Assembly: GCA_950295325.1 (NCBI GenBank) | Contig: OX485806.1 | Coordinates: 56,601,169 to 56,665,168, forward strand | Direction: 5' to 3' | DNA length: 64,000 nucleotides | DNA from: Polytrichum commune | Taxonomy: Eukaryota; Streptophyta; Polytrichopsida; Polytrichales; Polytrichaceae | Shown here: positions 10,146 to 24,089 of the stretch, in pieces | How positions within the stretch are numbered: position 1 is the stretch's first letter | Layout: each line of letters begins with the position of its first letter | Program-made: the position numbers and the translations under genes | The notes under the pieces: generated by a model | What the model saw: only the letters and a program-made list of their open reading frames with translations | The model's database searches: none | What the model was told of the DNA's origin: nothing

Positions 10146-10179
10146 GGGCGAAGCTATTTTGCGAGCGGTGAGCAGTAAG
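10146..10179 (+). repeat. MULE left terminal inverted repeat
   Basis: This 34-bp end matches the reverse complement of 24056-24089 with six mismatches. The shared core is AAGCTATTT and GTGAGCAGT. It probably binds the element's transposase. Confidence 0.85.
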
Positions 10180-10514
10180 TTTTGGATTTTTGAGATAAAA
10201 AAATAGATTAGAGTTCATTGAAGATTAAAAAAATCCTATTTTTGCAAATTAATTTCTAATTATAGTCAAATTTAGGACCTATTACCGTGGGAAATTTGTC
10301 CACGGTGATCGTTGCAAAGTTGTTTTTGGGATGTACTTCGAGAGTGGGAAATGATGAAATCTGGTGGTAGCTTGTTAGGGTATGTAAAATGTAATGAGTT
10401 GTAATCAATATTGACAAACATTGTGGTGTATTTCTATGCAACAAAAATCAACTACATTGGCATTTTTTGAGATGGATGAGATTGAAGATTAAGTCAAGAA
10501 AAGTAGAGAAGGTT

Positions 10515-10880
10515 GTGAGCCACTCAAACCGCTAACGGGTTGAATTAAGGCCCACAATCTACAAAAAAGAAGAAGTTAGTGGTTAGAATTAGTCAATATA
10601 TAGGTGACTGTTAGTTTTTGAAACATCCGCCTGTGGATGCGAGTTGTGTAAGAGACTGGTATTAGGTCTGGACCAACCCGGGTTCGAATCCGGTTGGTTA
10701 CATTGACTGGTGCTATCCCAAATTGAGCTAGTGATAAAGCAGGAATAATCTATAGGCGGATACAGAGAAGGTGTTACTACGCGGTTGTGCGTAGATCCTT
10801 CTCAAATAGTTTTTATCTTTTAGAAACATGTTATTATTTATCCACGTGAAGTAATCAAACCGCTCGCGGTTGGATTAACA
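10515..10880. repeat. tRNA-like/SINE-like block with Pol III B box and inverted flanks
   Basis: GGGTTCGAATCC near 10680 is a good Pol III B box, inside a strong hairpin formed by ACCAAC and GTTGGT arms. About 130 bp apart, CATCCGCCTGTGGAT (near 10624) and ATCTATAGGCGGATA (near 10748) are inverted copies. Outside them, CAAACCGCT(N)CGGTTG(A/G)ATTAA appears twice (about 10526 and 10857), each time with a TGTGGCC/GGCCCACA-like box. CTACGC-GGTTGT-GCGTAG near 10779 is a perfect 6-bp hairpin. I could not find a convincing A box or complete cloverleaf, so a SINE is only one reading. Confidence 0.35.
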
Positions 10881-10962
10881 TTTGTGGCCTAAGTAGAAAG
10901 GAAGTCAGTAAATAGAAATTAGATTTAGATCAATTAGTTAGTATGAAGAAATTTAGACAAGG

Positions 10963-11148
10963 GATGAAGGACAGCGAAAGACATCGTCGGACGGATGAAT
11001 GACAGCGGAGGACGACACCGAATAGGTGAATGACAACGTAGGACGACGTGGAATGGATGAAAGACAACGTAAGACGACGTCGAATGGATAAATGACAATG
11101 TGGGACGACGTTGAATGGATGAAAGACAACGTAGGACAACCCCGAAGG
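10963..11148. repeat. 31-bp minisatellite, six copies
   Basis: GATGAA/GATAAA anchors recur at 10963, 10994, 11025, 11056, 11087 and 11118, exactly 31 bp apart. The unit has the form GATGAA-N-GACAACGTAGGACGACGT-N5. Because 31 is not a multiple of three, the long open frames across it on the minus strand are not protein-coding. It lies in the MULE between the left end and the 3' end of the transposase gene. Confidence 0.9.
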
Positions 11149-21015: not shown

Positions 21016-21610
21016 CATGGATTCTGACAACTAAGGGCTCGAAAGGGAATAGTTAATGCTTTTGTTTCGGGACCGAAAAATCATATGGAGTGCGAGCTGA
21101 GCCCTCAATGGACTCGGCAATTTGTTTTGTGCTTGCAATCGGCCATTTGTTTTGTTATACCATTTCTTTAAAGGACTTCATCGCATTATAATGTGTATTA
21201 TGATCCAACTTAGTTTTGCAAGCCCCTCTTGTTGCAACTCAACAGTAGCTTACAATATTTGTAGTAACTGTGATTGATATCTAGAGTGGCACCACTTTAG
21301 GAGGGTACAAGAATGTATAAAGAATTTGTTTTGCATTCCAGTACTAGGCAATGTACAAAGCAAGGAGGATTCTTTTAATCCTGTTGATAAGGGTCCTCAA
21401 ATTTGTTATTGTCCGACAGTCACTGCTTACAACTTTTTGATCAAGTCACACATTATCAGGGAGATTTATGTCTTGTGTTTGTTGTAGAGGTAGGTAATCT
21501 TCAAAATGATTTAAACTCCTCGTTGAATGGAACTAGTTGAATGTTTGTTCTATTCACCCTAAACCTTGTTTTATTGAAGTCATTTGTCATGTACAAATTG
21601 TGACAATCTC
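21016..21610. other. Rest of the intron before the methyltransferase core exon
   Basis: AT-rich intron sequence between donor 20884 and acceptor 21624. Besides the two TTTCGGGACCGAAA sites near its 5' end I see nothing notable. Confidence 0.6.
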
Positions 21611-23123
21611 CTTTGATTGTGCAGCACTCAAAAGACAAAACCCGGCACTACAAAGGTTCTCCGGAAGACCATCCATGTTTGGACTTGATTCTTGCAGATA
21701 TACCGGAAGGTCTTCCTGTTCCTGGCATATCAAACCCACCATCGTCCATTCCCGCTTGGAATCAAGAATCGAAAGAGTGGTTACAACCACTATTTGACTT
21801 TGCCGACCAACATCTGCATGACGACGGGGCAATTATTTTGTTTCACCTTTTTCGTATGAGTACGAAGTCCAATATTCTTGGATATTGCAAATCGTATGGC
21901 TTTGCAATTCGGAAAGAGTGGTGGGGAATGAACCGCCTTCATCTTACATCCCCAATAAATCCAGCATCAACTGTAAGATAATGCTTAAGTCTTCTTTCTG
22001 ATCACCGCTGCTTAGTACATTCAGTTTCAATTTCATCCTTGAGGTAGTTCTGAGTGTAGACCCACCAAACTATTATACTCACACAGTTGTGTTGTTTACT
22101 TTGTGAAGTAATATTGATCTTTATGTCTTGTACATTGTAGACCATGAGGTTCGGTATTTCATTGGCGGTCAGAAGCGTGTCGGGGTCACCTGCATCGAAG
22201 TTTTCATTTCGCCATGTCCCTGAATTGGATCCTTATGGGGTGGATGTTGCACGGGATGATATTCTCCAGAACTTGGTCTCTCGTGAGGACCAACTAACTA
22301 ATGGATCCACACCATGGCGAGGGCCTCGTGAAAAGTCCGTGCTTCTAATGCAAATGCTAATTGAAGCATGTAGCTCCCCAGGGGATATTATTCTAGACTG
22401 CACGGCAGCGACCGGTAATATGTCTTTGTAATCTTCCATTTCAGTTGGTTAATCGTTAATATTGTTTTGTTCTACAAAATTCATAGTGTTTTTTGTACTA
22501 AGTTTTTCCAACTTCTTTATTTGCAGGATCTTCCATTCATGCCTGCGGTAATGTGCACCGTCACATTGCGGCATTAGAGGCTGATGTAGATATTTTTGGG
22601 GGCTTACTTGCTCCATTGGTTATCTCTAGAGCAGCCTCTGAAGTCACTCTTGAAGACCGTGTCACTTGTGTAGAGGATCCTGAGGGTGAAGATATCCCCG
22701 TTGAGAGGATTGTGAAGAGATCTCGGTTTACTAAATGAGTATGGTCCACAAATTCTCTTACCAGTGTCATGTTTTTTTGTGTCATTTCATCTAAAGTTGA
22801 GTTATGAACATGGTACCATTGGCATTTGCAGATGCGATAAATTGGGCTATCCTATTCACCTGCCTTTTTTTTGTGACCCTGAATTCTATCCCAGGCCTCC
22901 AAAGTCTTGGCAACTTCCTACATACGCAAATGATATTGCTAATCAACTAGCTGGAGGTTCTTATCAGACATTTAGATCTAAATATCATCCGGGAAGAGTT
23001 TTAGAGTTTTTGGATATAGAAGCTTTTGAGTCTGATGGTCAGGCCTCCTCTGATGCAGATATTAGTGATTCTAGAATGTCTTCATCATCAGGTGATCACA
23101 GTGATTCGGATATGATGAAATAG

Positions 23124-24055
23124 CTTCATGTGGGTGTCTGTGTACTATCTAATATACCAGTTTTTTTTCCTTTCGTTTTTCATTTTGTGCACTCATTCCG
23201 CATGAAATTCATTGTATTTGTATTACTTTCGGAGTTTATGGGATTGAATATATAAAATTGCAGATTTAAGTTAACTTTTGACTTCATATTTTCTAATATT
23301 GTTTAAAATAATTTCGAACATCACTTGGTTACTTATTAACGTTTGAGTTTACGATTAATTTGATTGTTCATCACTTAATTCTATAATCTTACTATTTGTT
23401 CATACCCTTTTATTTTAAATTTAAGGGTTTCCACTATTTTTTTATTATTGTTTTCATATATTTTTTCAATGATTTCTTACGATTTATTGTTGCTGTATTT
23501 GTCTATGGCTATTCAATTGCAAATGAATTCCGACATAAATTGATGTCCACTTTTTTTCTAATTGTCATTCTTGTTTCTTATCCATGACTAGACAGTGAAA
23601 TAATTTTGGCTTGGTGATTAGTATTCCTAGAACCTAATAGACATTGCACGTGTTTGTAATAACTGAGTAAAATTGCTTTGTAGTGATGGGACGTTATGGT
23701 GGCGACTGATGGGTGTTTGCTTACCATTGTCTTCGCCATGAATTCCTCACCACATTTCGCGTCCCCCCTCTCTCGTTATACTTTGCAAAATGGTATTTAG
23801 GGTTAGATGTTTTCGCCTTAAGTCTGAATATCGGCTGCCTCCACATGCACATGTCTAGAATTTAACATTGAAAGGTGCACCTTGGATTTGGACGAAGAGG
23901 CGCACATTATTTTCCCGCACGCACGGATATAGGCGTCATTACGTCATTATCTTGTAAAAAAATTTAAATTACATCAAAATATCGCGGTCATAGGGTGCGC
24001 ATCACTTGACAAAAATTATCAAAATTACCGTTCACTTACAGCTCACGGCTCACGG
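23124..24055. other. MULE right-end non-coding region
   Basis: AT-rich sequence from the stop of the methyltransferase-like gene to the right terminal repeat. Probably 3' untranslated region and subterminal sequence. No coding frame or repeat stands out until the GTGAGC-type heptamers near 24040. Confidence 0.5.
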
Positions 24056-24089
24056 CTCACTGCTCACTGCTCACTAAATAGCTTTTCCC
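24056..24089 (-). repeat. MULE right terminal inverted repeat
   Basis: Its reverse complement starts GGGAAAAGCTATTTAGTGAG and matches the left end at 28 of 34 positions. Just inside it, TGAGC(A/C)G heptamers extend the repeat to about 24030. Confidence 0.85.

Follow-up and report, generated by a model that had tools for sequence, protein, structure and literature searches.

A methyltransferase-like gene that moves with the transposase of a candidate Mutator-like element in Polytrichum commune

Results

The element and its boundaries

The stretch of 64,000 nucleotides analysed here (the window) covers positions 56,601,169 to 56,665,168 of contig OX485806.1 in the Polytrichum commune assembly GCA_950295325.1, and its positions 10146–24089 are one copy of a multi-copy DNA transposon that holds two divergent genes, one for a transposase and one for a protein with a methyltransferase-like domain. 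An initial reading of the letters made without database searches (the sequence-only reading) had described a Mutator-like element (MULE) at this place, with terminal inverted repeats matching at 28 of 34 bp, a near-perfect target duplication of 9–10 bp and two divergent genes between the ends, and all of these features were recovered. The terminal repeats, located by repeat search and end pattern at 10146–10179 (+ strand, left-end type GG.CGAAGCTATTTTGCGAGC) and 24056–24089 (− strand, right-end type GGGAAAAGCTATTT), are 34 nt long and 82% identical, and constitute the longest such inverted pair within 9900–24400. Comparison of the flanks placed the two 10-bp copies of the target duplication at 10136–10145 and 24090–24099; their sequences, TATTTTTTAC and TATTTATTAC, agree at nine of the ten positions.

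The left flank of the insertion is itself repeated, as four other places in the genome match the flank alone. In all three of the flank relatives that were fetched, the left flank joins the right flank with a single copy of the 10 bp, at 92–95% identity; one of them has a base change within these 10 bp, and another a small gap further on. Since such unoccupied sites exist, and other copies carry perfect 10-bp duplications elsewhere, this is a real element with exact boundaries. A chance pairing of the terminal repeats was ruled out by the unoccupied sites and by the end pattern, which matched 221 places in the genome with up to two mismatches, against none for the reversed pattern. Both ends carry 7-bp GTGAGCA-type units followed by GTAAG, with more units on the right (those on the left were counted by eye), where a tandem-repeat scan found five 7-bp repeats at 24041–24075, partly inside the terminal repeat. 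The same scan detected a 31-bp tandem repeat in the left subterminal region (10962–11137).

Two side observations concern the body of the element. A tRNA B-box-like stretch, GGTTCGAATCC, lies near 10681 in the left subterminal region and is perhaps an old short interspersed element; no tRNA was found there by ARAGORN or Rfam. The observed/expected CpG ratio of the element (10146–24089) is 0.76, compared with 0.68 in the flank on its left and about 0.5 on its right, and the higher ratio of the element could come from a young insertion or from less methylation.

The transposase gene and the family assignment

Open frames place the transposase gene on the − strand at 11658–15288, in two exons (15288–13212 and 13112–11658), and in the window copy two stops and one frameshift interrupt the reading frame. 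CxC..CxH, NLAES and candidate DDE motifs were read by eye, partly in other copies, against the general motifs of DDE transposases and the SWIM-type CxC..CxH pattern. The window transposase gave no Pfam match at E ≤ 1; among four pieces from other copies searched at E ≤ 10, two had no match and two had weak, unrelated matches only. Transposase_mut was listed for two of 48 homologues, and weakly (best E value 0.034). Environmental sequence yielded 108 homologues at E ≤ 0.001, none with a precomputed Pfam domain, and a search of viral contigs with the transposase returned nothing useful. The SWIM-type Mutator transposase named by the sequence-only reading was therefore not borne out by Pfam profiles beyond the motifs read by eye. 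Two other traits agree with a MULE. Target duplications of 8–11 bp are reported for these elements (PMC6446971, as excerpted), and those found here measure 10 bp in three copies and are perfect in two; terminal repeats are shared, as the end-pattern matches show.

Other copies in the genome

The source assembly comprises 408 Mb in 64 contigs, of which the seven long ones (C1–C7) sum to about 406 Mb, which suggests seven chromosomes. The left end and flank of the window copy match 34 other places, and 20-kb stretches were examined at the seven best. Two relatives on C4 (C4:48.009 and C4:49.68), read end to end, have main blocks 95–98% identical to the window, both genes and the same layout; they occupy different insertion sites, each with a perfect 10-bp duplication, and so show together the same ends, the different flanks, the own duplications and the gene pair that the sequence-only reading had proposed to look for. 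The copy at C2:67.72 bears an insertion of ~7.5 kb, matches at 94–98% and retains methyltransferase exons; it was read to ~2.4 kb before its end. Both genes are also present in the distant relative C6:6.96, where the transposase is 63% and the second gene, by part, 23–39% identical, and C6:18.66 matches the window copy over 2.2 kb only. As a separate observation, transposase copies of a subfamily at 62–63% identity (C3:13620976, C3:58495274 and C3:12063045) lie in open frames of 2390–2527 residues, far longer than the others.

Genome-wide linkage of the two genes and the ends

Linkage was then counted over the whole assembly. The search for the second gene, with the best 139 of 2072 candidates scored, gave 180 matches of methyltransferase exons, and 137 first-exon loci were used; for the transposase, the best 90 of 1910 candidates were scored, and 100 of the 221 end-pattern places were listed. 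Coordinates for linkage and for palindrome placement were transcribed by hand, and some contig sizes were rounded or guessed for random placement. A divergent transposase lay no more than 30 kb upstream at 45 or more of the 137 methyltransferase-like loci (at least 31 within 15 kb), whereas random placement gave the same geometry at 0.53 loci on average and at 3 at most in 500 trials. When a listed transposase was present within 30 kb (50 loci), the nearest was divergent and upstream in 45 cases and on the same strand in five.

The ends behaved in the same oriented manner. Left ends are mostly GGACGAAGC and right ends mostly GGGAAAAGC. A correctly facing right end was found within 8 kb at a minimum of 55 of the 137 gene loci, which disfavours a fixed host gene, and a wrongly facing one at none of the 137 among the ends listed. 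Conversely, 55 of the 73 right-type ends listed face a listed gene copy within 8 kb, and 15 of the 27 left-type ends listed face a listed transposase within 12 kb. Both ends were present at no fewer than 15 gene loci, at least 11 of them with a listed transposase inside. The two genes are thus jointly mobile and linked throughout the genome, and the earlier claim that both genes move together, enclosed by the same ends, is supported by the copies, the linkage and the unoccupied sites alike.

Some counts could speak against a strict linkage. No transposase lay within 30 kb, among the matches listed, at 87 of the 137 gene loci, and 18 of the 73 right-type ends had no listed gene copy within 8 kb. 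In C5:17.56 and C7:35.85, two of the seven fetched relatives, the transposase is present and the second gene was not detected in the limited stretch read, which on C5 includes unread letters. Ends without the gene, together with the gene at fixed host loci, had been named as what would tell against a joint element; these numbers address that point in part.

The second gene and its conservation

Joining of open frames gave a methyltransferase-like gene of about 11 exons on the + strand (15962–22735), with a possible further 3′ exon at 22833–23120. Most of its introns are of the GT-AG kind and several exon limits are approximate; in the other copies one donor is GC. A homologue search singled out the exon at 18088–18735, which carries a conserved DGNHR.QAW motif. 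Profile and sequence comparison identified the first methyltransferase-like exon at 21625–21972, with DIPE at the motif IV position, and the second and third (22141–22414 and 22528–22735, together 22141–22735) with motif X and motif I (DCTAATGSS). In the window copy this gene is broken by two in-frame stops in exon 18088–18735 and by a frame shift at a C-run near 20620; the two stops are losses of this copy, as they are absent from three of three other copies. The window copy is therefore decayed in both reading frames, a point that the sequence-only reading did not make; unbroken second-gene frames exist elsewhere in the genome.

In 30 of 31 loci no stop interrupts the methyltransferase-like exons, as far as they were aligned (278 codons, or fewer at some of the loci). 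When the window was compared with ten more distant loci, the ratio of nonsynonymous to synonymous substitution rates (dN/dS) was 0.17–0.29; comparison with the two closest copies gave 0.34 and 0.60, and the printed pairs (dS above 0.03) span 0.13–0.60. The second protein is under purifying selection, and these ratios rule out a pseudogene passenger. Exon 18088–18735 found 319 homologues at E ≤ 0.01 among 422 candidates, with 65–94% identity among the best 120 listed, and relatives of both the second gene and the transposase are common in environmental sequence. With the spliced whole second protein as query, no match was obtained among 7999 scored candidates.

A methyltransferase-like domain with an altered catalytic motif

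The Pfam family PF01555 (N6_N4_Mtase) was matched by all six family members tested, with a best E value of 7.4e-7; one of these proteins had been joined by hand, and those that were typed in contain an additional residue at a splice junction. The window piece alone matched it at 8.6e-5 with 23.0 bits, under the curated cut-off of 26.7, and at E ≤ 1 the window protein matched in Pfam only N6_N4_Mtase and a dynein model. Further matches were obtained to phrog_3008 (5.3e-6) and DpnA (7.6e-6), and these, like those to PF01555, span mainly motifs X and I. CcrM matched nearly the whole domain at 0.033, in a list where unrelated peroxidases score 0.026. Judged from the profile and sequence matches, the homology of the domain to N6/N4 amino methyltransferases is real.

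In amino methyltransferases, whose conserved motifs are numbered, motif IV is catalytic and has the general form (D/N/S)PP(Y/F/W). In nearly all loci read, this form is absent from the motif IV position, which is DIPE in most loci, DLPE or DQPE in four of the five loci of a 75% group (DIPE in the fifth) and EYPD in C6:6.96, with further alterations in single copies. Some 11 residues later NPPS or DPPS occurs in most loci, NPPT once and NPIS twice, in no case with an aromatic residue. Motif I, motif X and the acid of ALExD are largely kept. Forms described for motif IV are SPPY, DPPY, NPPY and DPPW, and in the bdelloid enzyme N4CMT a change from SPPY to APPA abolished activity (PMC8885841, as excerpted). 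With respect to METHYLTRANSFERASE, catalysis is probably lost or altered, and cofactor binding may remain. The methyltransferase-like domain of the sequence-only reading accordingly stands as a matter of homology; that the protein modifies DNA is doubtful, given the altered motif IV of the loci that were read.

The same reading had also recognized a ParB-like domain, of which the DGNHR.QAW motif is indeed reminiscent. No ParB model was found at E ≤ 10 for any of 49 homologues of this exon, in searches where the HMMER filters drop most weak matches; DUF1015 was listed for five of the 49 (best 0.061). The exon from four genomic copies had no Pfam match, and no ParB appeared among sequence searches of solved structures, phages and plasmids with this domain. 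As no profile or sequence match supports it, the ParB identity was set aside and the domain left unnamed. Bacterial parS, which we take to share the half GTTTC with the commonest palindrome of the window at another spacing, was given no weight because of the lack of a ParB match.

Palindromes in noncoding DNA

Repeat and pattern scans revealed a palindrome array in intronic sequence at 16634–17942, formed by 46-bp and 129-bp tandem repeats with TTCGG-NN-CCGAA dyads. Another intronic palindrome, GTTTCGGGTCCGAAAC, lies at 19126–19141, and two more within 21001–21079 (21001–21016 and 21064–21079) each differ by one mismatch from the 16-bp form. With one mismatch allowed, the dyad occurs 13 times in the window, 12 of them in the element at 16653–21077, for an expectation of 1.06 in the whole window. 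All 12 lie outside exons, the exon fraction of the second gene being 0.475. Sites outside the arrays have the dyad too: 17931, 19128, and the pair 21003/21066, which has similar flanks. The exact dyad was counted nine times in the window stretch and 5, 12 and 20 times in three close copies.

Across the genome, 405 sites of GTTTCGG-NN-CCGAAAC were counted and 3 of its reversed pattern; the corresponding numbers are 1383 and 0 for GTCTCGG-NN-CCGAGAC, and 49 and 1 for GTATCGG-NN-CCGATAC. Among the first 50 of the 405 GTTTCGG sites, 37 were within 10 kb of the second gene (34 upstream) and 13 were not. For GTCTCGG, 24 of the first 50 of 1383 were within 10 kb of the second gene, and all 50 were within 20 kb of the second gene or a transposase, compared with 0.74 at random. 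The GTATCGG form had been chosen as a negative control and failed as such, since 41 of its 49 sites, spread over 17 loci, fell upstream of the gene at a distance of 10 kb or less (eight did not). The three perfect forms total 1837 sites, against 79 T/C and 78 A/C hybrids. Of the T/C hybrids, 46 have AT at the centre (GTTTCGG-AT-CCGAGAC), are often about 157 bp apart (C4:43244381-43245944 and others) and never have a listed copy of either gene within 30 kb; they look like one unrelated repeat. Nineteen of the other 33 are near, and 44 of the A/C hybrids lie within 10 kb of the second gene, at 14 loci. The three forms and the hybrid counts indicate a constant core TCGG-NN-CCGA with a third base that is mostly symmetric, and the palindromes differ between subfamilies.

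Other dyads were seen in passing. The divergent copy C6:6.96 has six GCCGG-NN-CCGGC palindromes at stretch positions 6405–8891, some in repeated context. The C7:35.85 stretch, in which the second gene was not detected, has nine GGACG-NN-CGTCC at positions 10625–15777, most of them in a longer GTTTACGGACG-like dyad and several with unrelated flanks. Outside the element, TGACTA-N4-TAGTCA occurs 12 times at window positions 4979–45746, several times in 30–33-bp tandem repeats, and is perhaps the motif of another transposon family.

Other features of the window

Direct copies of 2290 bp at 40127–42416 and 50637–52926 are 99.9% identical and are probably the long terminal repeats of a young retrotransposon. 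Open frames at 439–9486 resemble, by eye, a CACTA-type element, and the insertion flank is repeated elsewhere.

Discussion

We propose that the element belongs to a Mutator-like family whose second gene would encode a DNA-recognition protein built on a degenerate N6/N4-type methyltransferase domain. This protein would bind the family's own GTnTCGG-NN-CCGAnAC palindromes, which sit in noncoding sequence, within the protein's gene or upstream of it, and multiply as tandem repeats. Once bound, it would counter the silencing of the element by its host, in the manner of VANC on VANDAL elements. The motif bound by VANC21 is short and forms arrays in introns and other noncoding parts of VANC21's own elements (PMC5735166, PMC10398659), and noncoding regions of VANDAL elements are reportedly targeted by RNA-directed DNA methylation (PMC10398659). 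Self-recognition with an anti-silencing effect is favoured because a selected protein, found in every copy read end to end, and noncoding palindromes that vary between subfamilies resemble VANC21 and its motif; for the whole of it, binding and effect included, we hold the case to be evenly balanced. The binder would be the second protein and not the transposase. The self-marking or evasion of silencing suggested by the sequence-only reading gains weight from the palindrome arrays, which that reading did not contain. More tentatively, and with somewhat less than even confidence, this may be a second such system, in another plant lineage, in which a catalytically dead bacterial-type methyltransferase and a new domain read coevolving, family-specific palindromes and protect their own family only, built independently of VANC and convergent with it.

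Several points weigh against self-recognition by the second protein. The exact TTCGG-NN-CCGAA dyad is absent from four of the seven fetched 20-kb relative stretches. The GTTTCGG and GTCTCGG sites that were placed, the first 50 listed of each, are all on C1, the GTATCGG type being placed in full. Tandem duplication inflates the counts, so sites in arrays are not independent, and symmetry at position 3 is not strict, since asymmetric A/C sites (78) are more numerous than those of the A/T palindrome (49). Moreover, the transposase could be the palindrome binder, and the methyltransferase domain could act by an altered chemistry.

Other explanations were weighed against the same data. A transposition co-factor or regulator of mudrB or TnpA type, with the palindromes as operators or helper sites, is unlikely. 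TnpA-type proteins serve as co-factors in transposition, and the many palindromes 5′ of the methyltransferase exon would suit autoregulation, but the sites in the window are internal (16653–21077) and not beside the ends, and up to 20 sites per copy, in arrays over several kb, exceed what an operator needs. MULEs may nevertheless carry a second open reading frame, and mudrB is apparently required for integration (PMC6446971). That the second protein is an active DNA methyltransferase marking the element's own DNA at or near the palindromes is improbable in our view. The N6_N4_Mtase matches of all six members, the similarity to DpnA and the largely kept motif I, motif X and ALExD acid argue for it, and retrotransposons with adenine and cytosine methyltransferases are known (PMC5890265), but DIPE, DLPE, DQPE and EYPD all depart from the catalytic form, and the change to APPA was enough to kill bdelloid N4CMT (PMC8885841).

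We also regard it as decidedly improbable that the arrays are ordinary minisatellites without a ligand, the second gene being kept for an unrelated function. Many sites do belong to tandem repeats (46, 129 or about 250 bp) and cannot count as independent, the form seen in one subfamily is asymmetric, and TGACTA-N4-TAGTCA likewise recurs elsewhere in the window. However, the dyad is what the sites outside the arrays have in common, the symmetric GTATCGG control turned up upstream of 17 gene loci, and perfect sites far outnumber the hybrids. A chance capture of a host gene, as a Pack-MULE-like passenger, is very improbable: MULEs tend to acquire host gene fragments (PMC6446971), but this gene is kept beside transposases only about 63% identical and is under purifying selection.

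Should self-recognition by the second protein hold, it would mean that transposons acquired this ability more than once, through an apparently different protein, and that a methyltransferase fold was kept for recognition and not for catalysis. With several subfamilies and matching palindrome variants side by side in a single genome, comparison of the proteins with their palindromes would then reveal the recognition code. For VANC in Arabidopsis, it has been worked out how a transposon counters silencing in a sequence-specific way (PMC5735166), and MULEs with extra genes are already known (PMC6446971, PMC13317346). The word "methyltransferase" is absent from the main text of PMC6446971, and no report of a MULE with a methyltransferase-like gene was found among titles and opening lines of abstracts, in searches that in several cases listed just the top of a longer result set and that left most subscription journals outside.

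The closest parallel is VANDAL21/Hiun with VANC in Arabidopsis, likewise a MULE-type element with a second protein, in which subfamily-specific short motifs pile up as tandem repeats in noncoding DNA (PMC5735166). The Polytrichum system differs in having a methyltransferase-like protein, with no similarity to VANC detected and no direct comparison with VANC made, in having ends with terminal inverted repeats, and in its motif, a gapped palindrome in place of a directional 9-mer. KIU/Kaonashi MULEs also have a conserved extra gene, but an ULP1-like protease-like one (PMC13317346). Mobile DNA and a methyltransferase gene are combined in DIRS elements with a Dam-like adenine methyltransferase and in dinoflagellate and charophyte retrotransposons with cytosine methyltransferases (PMC5890265). 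In contrast to DIRS and the other retroelements, the present element is a DNA transposon, and its catalytic motif is altered. KDZ elements are DNA transposons with a modification-type gene, TET/JBP, in another lineage and of another enzyme class. Finally, DpnA and bdelloid N4CMT share with the second protein the order of motifs, X and I following IV, and DpnA also matches it in sequence, whereas here motif IV is altered and the domain is joined to a large N-terminal region.

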